DNA from: a virus
Strand: one strand, 5' to 3'
Length of the DNA stretch: 34,671 nucleotides
Virus record (IMG/VR): IMGVR_UViG_3300009163_000011
Span: 1-34,671 of that record
In this document: piece after piece, positions 6,555-11,654 of the stretch
Numbering within the stretch: position 1 is the stretch's first letter
How the letters are laid out: the number at the start of each line of letters is the position of its first letter
The notes under the pieces: model-generated
What the model saw: only the letters and a program-made list of their open reading frames with translations
Databases searched by the model: none
Told to the model about the DNA's origin: nothing
Program-made: the position numbers and the translations under genes

Positions 6555-6788
6555 TTAAAAATCTTCTTTATCGTCATACCATTGCGCCACGGTCTTGGGT
6601 TCTTTTGGCAATAGGGCTGCTGGGTTGCGGCTGGGCTTTTCCCCCGACCATTGGTGATGTGAGCATTTGGGGCGGTCGCCGCTTATATGGACCGTCCAAC
6701 GTTTATTGCAACCTGGCACGGAACACATAAGGCGCTGCATTTCATCCATGCTGGATTCTTGTTTTTTCTCAGGTTTAGCAAATGTCAT
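6555..6788 (-). CDS. Small zinc-ribbon-like protein, 77 aa
   Basis: Residues C22, C27, C42 and H44/H45 (CSVPGCNKRW ... PKCSHHQW) can form one zinc site. The rest is polar, and it ends WYDDKEDF. It is coupled to the DUF1376 gene by a 4-bp overlap, like accessory replication proteins in lambdoid phages. It is not a DnaC/P-type loader: it has no P-loop and is too short. A DNA- or protein-binding adaptor role is a guess. Confidence 0.65.
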   Translation of the reverse strand: MTFAKPEKKQESSMDEMQRLMCSVPGCNKRWTVHISGDRPKCSHHQWSGEKPSRNPAALLPKEPKTVAQWYDDKEDF

Positions 6789-7549
6789 TTGGCGTACTTT
6801 CCATCGATGATTTTTTGAAAATTAGTGGCATTGACAATCCATTCCAGGTCGGGCCGCCACGTTCGCCCTTTTGTTTCAAACCCGTTAGCCAGGCTGGTGT
6901 CGTTGGCTATGTAACCAAAAAACGAATCCCACCACTTCAATCCCGTTTCCGTGGTTTTGTAGCCTTCGGGGGAATAGGCCGATGGTTTACCAGCTTGAAC
7001 CCAGCGCTGCCGCATATTGGCCTGGCGGTTGCCCTCCCAAGTTCTTGGCTGGGTTAAGTGTGGCAAATTCTTTTCCCAAAGTTTTAATAATTCGGAATGT
7101 GGACAAGGCGGGAACGTAGTTCCAGACAAAGAAGGTTTACCTTCTTTAATATTGGGTATTGGGTTATTGGTTATGTGTAATGTGTCTTGTGTAGCATTGC
7201 CTTCGGATTGCGCTTGTAATGCGTTCGCATCTTTAGCCTTATTCCATCGGGCTTTGGCGCTTTCGCTTGCCTTACTAGATTTCTCCCCAGCCCTGGCAAT
7301 TTCCTTATCGGCCCTGTGATGTATCCATCCATCTTCGGTGCATTCGAAATACTCTTGCAAAACCAACGCAATTGAATCGCTATGCGATCGCATACGGATT
7401 TGCCTAGATGTTTCTGTCAAATCTAAGGGTATCGGGATTTCGTGAAGATAGTACCAATCAAGCAAACGCCGATAAGTTAAATCTTCAATGTCGGATAAAT
7501 GTGCGGTGTGACTTTGATAGTCACCAATGTTAAATTGGTAGTAATGCAT
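6785..7549 (-). CDS. DUF1376 (YdaU-like) replication protein, 254 aa
   Basis: The N-terminal domain reads MHYYQFNIGDYQSHTAHLSD, then LTYRRLLDWYYLHEIPIPLD and VLQEYFECTEDGWIHHRADKEI: the DUF1376/YdaU signature, a winged-helix domain seen at the front of phage O-like initiators. A polar linker follows, then a C-terminal region with WEGNRQANMRQRW and GLKWWDSFFGYI. The ATG at 7549, with AAGG 7 bases before it, is preferred to a TTG two codons upstream. It is the first gene after cro, where lambda-type phages put their replication initiator. No helicase loader or helicase gene follows. Confidence 0.8.
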   Translation of the reverse strand: MHYYQFNIGDYQSHTAHLSDIEDLTYRRLLDWYYLHEIPIPLDLTETSRQIRMRSHSDSIALVLQEYFECTEDGWIHHRADKEIARAGEKSSKASESAKARWNKAKDANALQAQSEGNATQDTLHITNNPIPNIKEGKPSLSGTTFPPCPHSELLKLWEKNLPHLTQPRTWEGNRQANMRQRWVQAGKPSAYSPEGYKTTETGLKWWDSFFGYIANDTSLANGFETKGRTWRPDLEWIVNATNFQKIIDGKYAK

Positions 7550-7656
7550 TGACAAACCTTTTTCCCACCTTTGAAAAGAGAACTAAGGCGGAGGGAAGGT
7601 GTAACCCTTTTCGGTCCAGGGAGCTACCCCAAACCTAGCCTTGTTCCAAAATTATT

Positions 7657-7809
7657 CTACTTGAACCATTTCGGATGCAGCACCCGCAGCTGCCAAACCC
7701 TAGCCTGGGGAACGTTCTTCCATTGGCTAATGGCTGCAGTTGTTATGCCCAGCAGCTCCGCCAGCTTCCTGGCAGAACCCGCTTTTTCGATTGCCTGTTC
7801 TTTTGTCAT
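7657..7809 (-). CDS. cro: Cro-like repressor, 50 aa
   Basis: Reads MTKEQAIEKAGSARKLAELL, then GITTAAISQWKNVPQARVWQ and LRVLHPKWFK. This is the YdaS/Cro-type helix-turn-helix, with Q/A-x-SQW in the recognition helix and the typical VPxARVWQLRVL end. It is the first gene of the leftward unit. The -10 of its promoter ends 6 bases before the ATG, so the mRNA probably begins at the start codon and no ribosome site is present. It lies next to, and probably controls, the divergent promoters through the dyads at 7824, 7858 and 7894. No CI partner is visible. Confidence 0.88.
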   Translation of the reverse strand: MTKEQAIEKAGSARKLAELLGITTAAISQWKNVPQARVWQLRVLHPKWFK

Positions 7810-7815
7810 ATTCGC

Positions 7816-7844
7816 ATATTAAGTTAGTTGGCTTATTTTGTCAA
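7816..7844 (-). promoter_or_regulatory. Leftward promoter (cro and downstream)
   Basis: On the minus strand TTGACA (7844-7839), a 17-base spacer and TAATAT (7821-7816): full -35 and 5 of 6 at -10. The expected start site, 7 bases further on, is base 7809, the A of the cro ATG. A dyad (7824-7835) lies in the spacer. Confidence 0.85.
7824..7835. promoter_or_regulatory. Candidate operator, left copy
   Basis: TTAGT-TG-GCTTA, 10 of 12 to the dyad TAAGC-N2-GCTTA, within the -35/-10 spacer of the leftward promoter. Probable Cro binding site, which would make cro autoregulated. Confidence 0.6.
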
Positions 7845-7857
7845 TACCCTACAAAGT

Positions 7858-7869
7858 TAAGGGGGCTTT
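7858..7869. promoter_or_regulatory. Candidate operator, middle copy
   Basis: TAAGG-GG-GCTTT, 10 of 12 to the dyad, halfway between the two promoters. The three centres are 34 and 36 bp apart. Confidence 0.45.
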
Positions 7870-7880
7870 ATAAATAACGT

Positions 7881-7909
7881 TTGACAATGTTGTTTAGCTG
7901 GCTTAATAT
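7881..7909 (+). promoter_or_regulatory. Rightward promoter 1 (accessory/recombination operon)
   Basis: TTGACA (7881-7886), a 17-base spacer and TAATAT (7904-7909): a consensus sigma70 promoter. A dyad, TTAGC-TG-GCTTA (7894-7905), overlaps the spacer and the start of the -10, where a bound repressor would block RNA polymerase. Confidence 0.88.
7894..7905. promoter_or_regulatory. Candidate operator, right copy
   Basis: TTAGC-TG-GCTTA, 11 of 12 to TAAGC-N2-GCTTA. The same position relative to the -10 is used in the two later rightward promoters. Confidence 0.6.
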
Positions 7910-7911
7910 TC

Positions 7912-7958
7912 ACCCATGCCCTAGCAAATTGCACGGGGTCTTTTAAAAGGGAATCAAA
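7912..7958 (+). promoter_or_regulatory. Conserved 5' leader, copy 1
   Basis: CATGCCC, then GGGG (7935-7938), then CTTTTAAAAGG (7940-7950) and the ATG. The pattern GCCC...GGG-CTTTTAAAAGG-AA-TCAA recurs in copies 2 and 3. The Shine-Dalgarno AAAAGGG is half of the CTTTTAAAAG palindrome. Confidence 0.65.
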
Positions 7959-8510
7959 ATGTCAAATCGTCAATATCTCACTTGTGCCGAAACTGCAAAG
8001 TTAGTTCGCGCAGCTTTAAAAGAGTCTTTTCCAGGTGTGAAGTTCAGCGTTAAGTCCAGCGTTTACAGCGGCGGCGCTTCCATCAATATCCGCTACACCG
8101 ATGGCCCAACATACGACCAGGTCAAATTGGTTGCTGGTATGTTCGAAGGTTCTTATTTTGATGGCATGACCGATTACAAAGGCAGCAATTACGGCAGCCT
8201 GGACGGTCAAGAAGTGCGCTTCGGTGCTGACTTCATCTTCATCAACCGCGAATTTTCCGCCGAATTCTTAACCACCCAAGTCGCTGCAGCTTGCGCCTAC
8301 TACGGTTACGCAATGCCGCAGATCACCGCACCAGCTGGCTACAGCGCTTACATCGCCGACCGCCTGGATTACGAAGTTAACCGCCGCATCATGAATCAGG
8401 TGTCAGAAGTTAGCCTTTGCGCCAGCAGCCCCAGCGCCACGCTAGCCCGCGTGGGCTTCCTGGGTGACGATGGTTATGGTTACGGTGCAGTTGGCAGATT
8501 AGCAGCTTAA
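7959..8510 (+). CDS. LPD29-domain protein, 183 aa
   Basis: The N-terminal 90 residues (YLTCAETAKLVRAALKESFP, then VKFSVKSSVYSGGASINIRY, DGPTYDQVKLVAGMFEGSYF and DGMTDYKG) match LPD29, 'large polyvalent protein associated domain 29'. That domain is found in multi-domain proteins of phages and conjugative elements delivered early into the host; its biochemical role is not known to me. The second half, up to YGYGAVGRLAA, carries no motif. It is the first gene behind rightward promoter 1, with AAAAGGG as ribosome site, so it should be the first early protein made. A host-takeover or anti-defence role is plausible but only inferred. Confidence 0.78.
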   Translation: MSNRQYLTCAETAKLVRAALKESFPGVKFSVKSSVYSGGASINIRYTDGPTYDQVKLVAGMFEGSYFDGMTDYKGSNYGSLDGQEVRFGADFIFINREFSAEFLTTQVAAACAYYGYAMPQITAPAGYSAYIADRLDYEVNRRIMNQVSEVSLCASSPSATLARVGFLGDDGYGYGAVGRLAA

Positions 8511-8520
8511 GGGGTACAAC

Positions 8521-8745
8521 ATGACAGTCGCAATTTCTCAAATTCCCGCAACCAACCAGGTCGCAACATATTTCAACGAAGAATATGGCATCGCGGCCCT
8601 GGTGACAAAAGTAAGCCGCGGCTATGCCGTGACCTTGCTCGATACCGATGCGGAACAAATCGTGCCTACGGTCCGCATTTTCCCGCTGGATATGTTGGCC
8701 CAGGCCATCGTGTACGCAAAACAACTCGCAAACTTAAAGGATTAA
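8521..8745 (+). CDS. Small protein, 74 aa, unknown
   Basis: Starts 10 bp after the LPD29 gene with AAGGGG about 7 bases before the ATG. It reads as alternating strands (YGIAALVTKVSRGYAVTLLD) then a helix (FPLDMLAQAIVYAKQLANLK). No family recognised. Cotranscribed with its neighbours and likely early. Confidence 0.7.
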   Translation: MTVAISQIPATNQVATYFNEEYGIAALVTKVSRGYAVTLLDTDAEQIVPTVRIFPLDMLAQAIVYAKQLANLKD

Positions 8746-8747
8746 TC

Positions 8748-9068
8748 ATGGAAATCAAAGCAGTAAAAAGTGCTTTCGGTTGGAGAGCTGAAAACTACTT
8801 CCCAATTGATAGCACCACGCGAATCACCATAACCACCATGAAACGCTACAGCGGGCAATTGACCACCACCGTGGTCGGCAGCCGAAAAGAAGGCGGTATG
8901 TGGTACTACACGGTGTGCCAGGACTATGGCATGACCTGGGCAGCCAACAGCTGCAGCCGCGTTACCAAACCAGCTGTGGAAGCCCAGCAAGCGGAAGTGA
9001 TCGCCAAGCTGTGGCAGATCGAAAACGAAGTCGTAGCTTTTTATGACCAGATTAGGGAAACCACCTAG
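8748..9068 (+). CDS. Small protein, 106 aa, unknown
   Basis: Starts 2 bp after the preceding stop. The N-terminal part is a beta segment (RITITTMKRYSGQLTTTVVG, MWYYTVCQDYGMTWAANSCS), followed by a C-terminal helix (VEAQQAEVIAKLWQIENEVV). It has two cysteines and no recognised motif. The next promoter cassette begins within a few bases of its stop, so it ends the first sub-operon. Confidence 0.7.
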   Translation: MEIKAVKSAFGWRAENYFPIDSTTRITITTMKRYSGQLTTTVVGSRKEGGMWYYTVCQDYGMTWAANSCSRVTKPAVEAQQAEVIAKLWQIENEVVAFYDQIRETT

Positions 9069-9079
9069 TAAATAATTGA

Positions 9080-9146
9080 TAAGCTGGCTTTACAATTCAT
9101 TCATGCCCCAGCAATTTCGCATAGGGACTTTTAAAAGGAAATTCAA
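9080..9146 (+). promoter_or_regulatory. Rightward promoter 2 with operator and leader copy 2
   Basis: The dyad TAAGC-TG-GCTTT (9080-9091) overlaps a -10, TACAAT (9091-9096). There is no good -35 at 16-18 bases, so it would be weaker than promoters 1 and 3. The leader repeats copy 1: CATGCCC (9102-9108), GGG (9124-9126), CTTTTAAAAGG (9128-9138), AAATTCAA, ATG. Confidence 0.65.
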
Positions 9147-9365
9147 ATGATCACTTTCACATATAACCGCCGCGCACCAATCAACGTGCAAACCGTTGCA
9201 GTTGGTTTTAATTTAGTAGAAGTCGGCGGCAAACGCCTTGACACATTACGCGAAGATTTCTTCGACCAGGGCGCTGGCGCTTTTTGTCGCACAACACCCC
9301 CAGCCATTGTTTCCGCTTACGACATTGCATTGTCTGGCGGCGAACCTTACTCAGTTTGGAAATAA
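9147..9365 (+). CDS. Small protein, 72 aa, unknown
   Basis: Reads MITFTYNRRAPINVQTVAVG, then FNLVEVGGKRLDTLREDFF, and ends ALSGGEPYSVWK. Probably a small alpha/beta fold; no family recognised. It is a single gene enclosed by its own promoter-leader cassette and the next one, so its dose can be set independently of its neighbours. The Shine-Dalgarno is AAAAGGAAA, 8 bases before the ATG. Confidence 0.7.
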   Translation: MITFTYNRRAPINVQTVAVGFNLVEVGGKRLDTLREDFFDQGAGAFCRTTPPAIVSAYDIALSGGEPYSVWK

Positions 9366-9368
9366 TTG

Positions 9369-9398
9369 TTGACAGCCCGTGTTAAGCGGGCTTATAAT
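9369..9398 (+). promoter_or_regulatory. Rightward promoter 3 with perfect operator
   Basis: TTGACA (9369-9374), an 18-base spacer and TATAAT (9393-9398), both hexamers perfect. The dyad TAAGC-GG-GCTTA (9383-9394) is perfect and covers the spacer and the start of the -10. It probably drives 9439 through the ERF/YqaJ genes. Confidence 0.85.
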
Positions 9399-9400
9399 TC

Positions 9401-9438
9401 AATCACGCCCTAACGGGTCTTTTAAAAGGAAATTCAAA
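9401..9438 (+). promoter_or_regulatory. Conserved 5' leader, copy 3
   Basis: CACGCCC-TAAC-GGGT forms a small hairpin (CCC 9408-9410 with GGG 9415-9417). Then CTTTTAAAAGG (9419-9429), AAATTCAAA and the ATG, as in copies 1 and 2. Confidence 0.65.
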
Positions 9439-10395: not shown

Positions 10396-11025
10396 ATGAA
10401 AAACATAGCCACCGCCCTGGTCAAAGCACAAAAGGCTTTTGGGCCAGCTTTAAAGACCGCTACGAACCCGCATTTCCGCAGCCGCTACGCTGACCTATCC
10501 GCTTGCGTTGAAGCGGTTGTGGACGCGTTAAACGATAACGGCATTTACTTGCTGCAGAAGAATTACGATTGCACCGATGGCGTAATGGTCGAAACCGTAT
10601 TTGTCCACGAATCTGGCGAAATGCTGGAGTGCGGGATTGTCCACTTTCCCGCGGTCAAACACGATCCCCAGGGCTACGCTAGTGCCTTGACTTACGCTCG
10701 GAGATATAGCCTTATGAGCGCCTGTGGCATCGCGCCCGAAGATGACGATGGTAATGCGGCAACAAAATCTGCGGTTAAAGCAACCATAGGAAAACGACAA
10801 TCCAATACCTATGGAGACCTTGAGCAAATACCTTCCGATAGCGATGGTGTTGTAGACCGTTCTTACGCTCGGATGCAAGACCACATCACCGCTATTAGCG
10901 AGTCCACCAATGTTGAGGAATTGCAGATGCGCTTTAAGGAAGCCTACAAAGCCGCAAACACAGACAAAGAATGGCTAGAGGCAGTCACAGCCGCAAAAGA
11001 TTTAATGAAAAGGAAATTGAAATGA
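10396..11025 (+). CDS. erf: ERF-family single-strand annealing protein
   Basis: The N-terminal domain (MKNIATALVKAQKAFGPALK, then NPHFRSRYADLSACVEAV) leads to the ERF signature PQGYASALTYARRYSLMSAC and GIAPEDDDG at residues 91-119. The C-terminal half is a polar linker and helices (LQMRFKEAYKAANTDKEWLE). ERF of P22 anneals complementary single strands and circularises the terminally redundant genome. It is paired with a YqaJ exonuclease through a 4-bp overlap, the usual SSAP-exonuclease arrangement. Confidence 0.93.
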   Translation: MKNIATALVKAQKAFGPALKTATNPHFRSRYADLSACVEAVVDALNDNGIYLLQKNYDCTDGVMVETVFVHESGEMLECGIVHFPAVKHDPQGYASALTYARRYSLMSACGIAPEDDDGNAATKSAVKATIGKRQSNTYGDLEQIPSDSDGVVDRSYARMQDHITAISESTNVEELQMRFKEAYKAANTDKEWLEAVTAAKDLMKRKLK

Positions 11026-11654
11026 CCGAAGAAATAGAACAACGCTCAGAGGAATGGTTTGCTGCCCGCCTGGGCAAAGTTACTGCATCCCGCGTGGCGG
11101 ATGTAATTGCCAAAACTAAAACTGGTTATGCAGCCACCCGCGAAAACTACATCGCGCAGCTGGTGCTGGAACGTATCACCAAGACCAAGGCCGAAGGGTT
11201 CACCAGCTCCGCCATGCAATGGGGTATCGACCAAGAACCCTACGCCCGCGGATTTTTTGAAGCCACCACGGGCCAAATGGTTCAAGAAGTGGGGTTCATA
11301 CCTCACCCATTAATTGACATGGCTGGCGCGTCCCCTGATGGCCTTCTGGACGATGGCGAAGGCATGATCGAAATCAAATGCCCAGAATCTAAGGGAATGA
11401 TCGAAGCCCTATTAACCCAAAAAATCCCGCAGCGCTACCTGGCACAAATGCAGTTCCAAATGGCCTGTGCGGACCGTAAGTATTGCCAATATGTGGTTTT
11501 CGATCCCCGAATGCCACCGAAGGCGCAATTGTTTGTCAAACGGGTAGACCGTGACGATAAATACATCGCAGAGATCGAAGCGGAGATTGTGAAATTTCTA
11601 GCCGAAGTCGATGCCCAGGTCCAACAACTAAACGCAATTATTGATTCAAAATGA
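11022..11654 (+). CDS. YqaJ-family viral exonuclease
   Basis: The start is the ATG at 11022, overlapping the erf stop (ATGA), which gives 210 residues. The motifs are QRSEEWFAARLGKVTASR (7-24), WGIDQEPYARGFFEATTG (67-84, with E72), GASPDGLLDD (102-111, with D106) and IEIKCPESKG (116-125, E117-x-K119), which together are the lambda-exonuclease/YqaJ PD-(D/E)xK active site. It resects double-strand ends 5' to 3' to make the single strands used by ERF. The stop overlaps the next gene by 4 bp. Confidence 0.93.
   Translation: MTEEIEQRSEEWFAARLGKVTASRVADVIAKTKTGYAATRENYIAQLVLERITKTKAEGFTSSAMQWGIDQEPYARGFFEATTGQMVQEVGFIPHPLIDMAGASPDGLLDDGEGMIEIKCPESKGMIEALLTQKIPQRYLAQMQFQMACADRKYCQYVVFDPRMPPKAQLFVKRVDRDDKYIAEIEAEIVKFLAEVDAQVQQLNAIIDSK

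Follow-up and report, generated by a model that had tools for sequence, protein, structure and literature searches.

In this study, we have examined short inverted repeats in the early promoters of a freshwater phage, and the combined evidence makes it very probable that these dyads are operators of a 50-residue Cro-like protein, which would exert an autoregulated lytic shut-off of the divergent early operons in a phage without known lysogeny genes. The window, by which we mean the whole stretch of 34,671 nucleotides that was analysed (IMG/VR record IMGVR_UViG_3300009163_000011), is the virus record of a P22-like podovirus, with matches to portal, scaffold, coat, DNA-ejection and head-closure families; at the DNA level, named phages gave two weak matches only. 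Nearly all genes lie on the leftward strand. The rightward block extends from 7959 to about 12228 and encodes an LPD29-domain protein, small proteins of no recognised family, an Erf-like annealing protein and a YqaJ recombinase. The genes that matter here are the following.

6785..7555, minus strand: DUF1376/primosomal-type replication protein, encoded after cro in the same leftward operon
7657..7809, minus strand: cro-like gene (50 aa, P22_Cro family), the proposed repressor, between the leftward and rightward blocks
7959..8510, plus strand: LPD29-domain protein (Pfam LPD29, E 3e-24), first gene of the rightward operon
10396-11025, plus strand: Erf-like annealing protein, downstream in the rightward operon
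11013-11654, plus strand: YqaJ recombinase, downstream in the rightward operon

The 50-residue protein belongs to the P22_Cro family (PF14549, 48.9 bits against a cut-off of 30.2, E 5.6e-13) and its PHROG match is a transcriptional regulator; Pfam YdaS also matches, more weakly (9.3e-9). Its recognition segment reads AAISQWK, as compared to AAVSQWK in P22 Cro (PDB 1rzs). The AF2 model (pLDDT 88.8, five helices) has the all-helical helix-turn-helix fold of the P22 and N15 Cro proteins, and it matches the N15 Cro-DNA complex (6on0, the top structural match) and P22 Cro (1rzs) with TM-scores of 0.76-0.77 (Foldseek E 0.025-0.027, probability 1.00). In nearly all relatives the best -10-like hexamer is found at a distance of 6 +/- 1 nt from the ATG of cro, and a Shine-Dalgarno-like tetramer precedes cro in 1 of 43 class A loci, 0 of 13 class C loci and 0 of 57 class B loci (the classes are defined below). 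Because the -10 adjoins the ATG and a Shine-Dalgarno sequence is missing, the cro mRNA is probably leaderless, as is the cro mRNA of PY54 (PMC4488713).

The promoters and repeats of the region are arranged as follows; the operator candidates are palindromic and carry no strand.

7844 to 7816, minus strand: leftward cro promoter, TTGACA-17-TAATAT, with transcription predicted to start on the A of the cro start codon ATG
7824-7835: operator candidate TTAGTTGGCTTA in the spacer of the cro promoter, a class-specific dyad conserved in relatives
7858-7869: extra, weaker candidate operator TAAGGGGGCTTT with one mismatch, between the two divergent promoters
7881-7909, plus strand: main rightward early promoter, TTGACA-17-TAATAT (sigma-70 hexamers)
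7894-7905: operator candidate TTAGCTGGCTTA, covering the first 2 bases of the -10
7916-7948, plus strand: predicted 5'-terminal leader hairpin (AUGCCC...GGGG UCUUUU), then the ribosome-binding site; 51 distinct leaders of relatives were folded
9051..9067: TTAGGGAAACCACCTAG dyad (TTAGGG..CCTAG) at the -35 position of the 9080 promoter, conserved, a candidate site for a second factor
9080-9091: operator candidate TAAGCTGGCTTT of the second rightward promoter, conserved in relatives' internal promoters
9091-9096, plus strand: -10 of the second rightward promoter, TACAAT, a good -10 without a clear -35
9369-9398, plus strand: third rightward promoter, TTGACA-18-TATAAT (12/12 hexamer matches)
9383-9394: operator candidate TAAGCGGGCTTA, a perfect dyad, with the same site found in relatives

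A first-pass annotation of this DNA had described four of these dyads, each between the -35 and the -10 of a promoter, with the rightward copies extending into the -10. Re-reading the sequence reproduces the four positions, the perfect symmetry of the copy at 9383-9394 (the dyad is imperfect in the other three of the four promoters) and the overlap with the start of the -10. The placement between two hexamers is correct for the three promoters with good sigma-70 hexamers; in the 9080 promoter no -35 can be made out. The same annotation took the leftward promoter to be that of cro, which it is, and this promoter apparently also drives the replication operon behind cro. Its list of sites lacked the fifth candidate at 7858-7869. 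Of 12 distinct class A sequences, 8 retain this site, and because it is broken in several relatives we have downgraded it from an operator equal to the other four. A perfect AGCCCG-N7-CGGGCT inverted repeat (9374-9392) also lies in the spacer of the 9383 promoter, where it overlaps the operator, and several relatives keep it.

Across the window the dyad is not enriched, whether counted with the pattern of the first-pass annotation (15 matches against 17.6 expected, at up to 2 mismatches) or as TAAG-N4-CTTA (10 against 10.6, at up to 1 mismatch), so that counts alone prove nothing. The earlier statement that the placement is unlikely by chance does hold for the three early intergenic regions, which contain 5 sites where 0.216 would be expected; four or more sites did not arise there in any of 5,000 local dinucleotide shuffles. 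The three rightward cassettes share a leader and look like duplicates of one another; their sites are therefore not three independent events, and it is the comparative evidence that carries the weight.

Some 200 related IMG/VR loci entered this comparison. The first sets were 69 loci that encode a relative of Cro and 80 that encode a relative of the LPD29 protein; later scans yielded about 80 class B and 19 class C loci. The first-pass annotation had staked its reading on conservation of the dyad in the promoters of related phages, and the dyad is indeed present at both divergent promoters in most class A members and at the internal promoters of relatives. More tellingly, its identity changes with the Cro subfamily. 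Class A Cro proteins go with TAAG-N4-CTTA, class B proteins (segment QNVVSNWRQRG) with TCACA-N2-TGTGA and class C proteins (segment R[MVC]AV[CNS][QR]W) with GTTAA-N6-TTAAC. We derived the class B motif from two loci, L094 and L101, which have VKQSVVSNWRRRG in the Cro recognition region and TCACA-N2-TGTGA at both promoters, before the 80 further loci were scanned, and most of the class B test is thus out of sample. Within 400 bp of cro, motif A has 30 sites among the 37 class A loci and none among 59 class B and 15 class C loci; motif B has 86 sites in class B and none in class A; motif C occurs 24 times in class C, never in clear class A loci, and once outside class C, in a locus whose class is uncertain under the pattern used. 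An inverted-repeat tally that assumed no motif put the same three arms on top.

The same pattern was obtained when promoters were located blind to the dyad, by anchoring the search on the downstream leader. Class A promoters found in this way carry a strict A dyad in 61 of 110 cases and a loose one in 77 of 110, with no B or C dyad, and many of the remaining matches have a degenerate A dyad or fall outside promoters altogether. In class B the B dyad is present in 17 of 24 and the A dyad in none, and in class C the C dyad is present in 6 of 6; none of the promoters anchored on the leader had the dyad of a class other than its own. Internal promoters 0.7-2.2 kb from cro also follow the Cro class, and the kind of leader is unchanged. 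L094 has an LPD29 gene 79% identical to that of the window, yet the operator of this gene is of class B, which argues that the operator follows Cro and not the downstream gene. On trees of neighbouring genes, we count at least 12 changes of Cro class for DUF1376 and 5 for HNH, and the operator matches the Cro class at all loci tested. The well-supported independent pairs on one tree, 3 for A/B and 2 for A/C, are all concordant and too few for a significant sign test. The cro-proximal operators could have been carried along with cro as a cassette, an objection from which only the distant promoters are exempt. The simplest cause of the co-variation would be that the Cro protein reads the dyad, and the change of dyad with Cro subfamily points to this protein as the binder instead of a host factor or a quirk of the promoters. 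The earlier proposal of the Cro-like protein as a good candidate binder is thereby strengthened, and we regard the Cro interpretation as well supported at the level of sequence. The LPD29 promoters of L127, L128 and L148 have a fourth dyad, TTAAC-N4-GTTAA, and the Cro-like protein encoded 1.8 kb away contains PPAVCVWRK; these loci possibly represent a fourth Cro class.

The rightward transcripts have further features of their own. A predicted hairpin (GCCC...GGGUC) stands at the 5' end of every rightward mRNA, followed by UCUUUU and a ribosome-binding site (7916-7948, 9102-9146 and 9405-9438 in the window); it is common to classes A, B and C and possibly serves as an mRNA-stabilising 5'-terminal hairpin. 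In most relatives the predicted transcripts begin with AUG-CCC, and 100 of 132 such leader matches read AUG-CCC-stop, with UAG, UGA and UAA all in use, perhaps as a leaderless minigene of two codons, as a safeguard or simply as a consequence of the hairpin. A TAGGG-N3-7-CCCTA dyad is found at or just upstream of the -35 in the window (9051-9067) and in L155, L159, L026, L066 and L262. It is notable in promoters without a good -35, is independent of the Cro class, and is a candidate activator site.

We have weighed three other readings. According to the one that survives best, which we nonetheless consider unlikely, the protein is a CI-like maintenance repressor, for lysogeny or plasmid-like carriage, acting on the same operators. 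Such a protein would repress every early promoter found, and a leaderless cro-like mRNA recalls those of lambda cI and of PY54 cI and cro (PMC4488713). Against this, the protein has 50 residues, consisting of a Cro fold only with no induction domain, and the domains of a temperate phage were not detected in the window and 22-25 related records, which may be incomplete: tyrosine integrase (PF00589) in 0 of 26 records, serine recombinase (PF00239) in 0 of 23 and S24 repressor in 0 of 23, with the window counted in each case. HTH_3 gave sub-threshold matches only, and those compared with cro coordinates coincide with cro. The temperate markers of a lambdoid switch are thus missing among the records searched, and since no CI-type repressor or integrase was found, a lytic shut-off is favoured over a lysis-lysogeny switch. 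It is less probable still, and in our view very unlikely, that the dyad belongs to a different regulator, of host or phage origin, while the Cro-like protein acts elsewhere. The TAGGG..CCCTA dyad does suggest another factor at some of these promoters, but that dyad and the leader stay the same when the identity of the operator dyad shifts with the class of the Cro recognition helix, and the records have neither an S24 repressor nor an HTH_3 match above the cut-off. Finally, we give hardly any credence to the dyad being mere promoter sequence copied along when a promoter-leader cassette was duplicated: the rightward cassettes share a leader and look duplicated, and the right half-site overlaps the -10, but the left half-site lies in the spacer, without a promoter role, and its conservation in class A (0.9-1.1 bits at -20 to -18) equals that of parts of the -10, the leftward cro promoter has the dyad outside the duplicated cassette, and class B and C phages have the same kind of leader after a different dyad.

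Returning to Cro as the reader of the dyad, the sites, the promoters, the protein family, their conservation and the co-variation of Cro and dyad classes are read directly from the sequence, and from there we infer dimerisation, binding, repression and timing. Early in infection, both divergent promoters would fire. The leftward transcript would be a leaderless mRNA for cro and then the replication gene and more, and the rightward transcripts would be one to three hairpin-led mRNAs for accessory and recombination genes. A Cro dimer would read TAAG-N4-CTTA with one recognition helix per half-site and, seated in the spacer and, at the rightward promoters, on one or more bases at the start of the -10, would occlude RNA polymerase. 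As Cro builds up, it would repress its own promoter and the rightward promoters, and the early burst would limit itself. Autoregulation cannot simply be assumed, given that PY54 Cro, which has one site beside the repressor gene, is thought not to repress itself (PMC4488713).

On a broader scale, we tentatively suggest, at somewhat less than even confidence, that a large group of freshwater podoviruses lacking CI and integrase is run by a single leaderless Cro as a global early shut-off, and that Cro and its dispersed operators have switched together between at least three specificity classes, giving Cro "immunity groups" without lysogeny. Textbooks present Cro as one half of a two-repressor switch, whereas here it appears to act alone, over a regulon of several promoters. 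Cro classes have been exchanged in nature together with matching operators at several promoters, and these exchanges make up a sizeable data set on the Cro recognition code proposed by Hall, Lefevre and Cordes (2005), as cited in PMC4997575. The Cro classes also lead to predictions of which pairs of these phages would be able to repress one another in a co-infection.

Among known systems, P22 is the closest. Cro and C2 share operators, and our comparison rests on the annotated P22 record together with this general knowledge. The annotated P22 operator regions (OL/OR) contain TAAG-N4-CTTA or sequences one mismatch from it, including TAAG-N4-CTT[AT], so that the TAAG half-site with a 4-base centre is common to P22 and the window, as are the protein family and a near-identical recognition segment. 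There are clear differences, however. P22 Cro has 61 residues, 11 more than the window protein, and P22 cro diverges from the c2 repressor gene, whereas the gene divergent from the window cro is the LPD29 gene of the accessory and recombination operon and not one for a CI/C2-type repressor. The window sites, unlike those of P22, occur one per promoter and are spread over 1.6 kb, and no C2-type repressor was found. The all-alpha Cro fold is shared with the Cro proteins of N15, PY54 and phiKO2; PY54 Cro binds a single site near the repressor gene, whereas the candidate sites of the window lie in cro's own promoter and several others. With the YdaS/Cro regulators of cryptic prophages the window protein has the Pfam YdaS match in common, although no toxin or YdaT partner is seen at the window cro. 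The Manatee Spring phage records MW202674 and MW202520 have a P22-like portal about 65% identical to that of the window, an Erf gene, an SQW-type regulator and TTAAG-type dyads, but their regulator is longer (71-76 aa) and their gene order differs; in Rhodoferax phage P26218, a pattern search gave no Cro-like gene. The protein and its site are of known kinds, a P22_Cro family member and a P22-type operator. What differs from lambdoid switches is the circuit, with no detectable second repressor and with operators dispersed one to each promoter.
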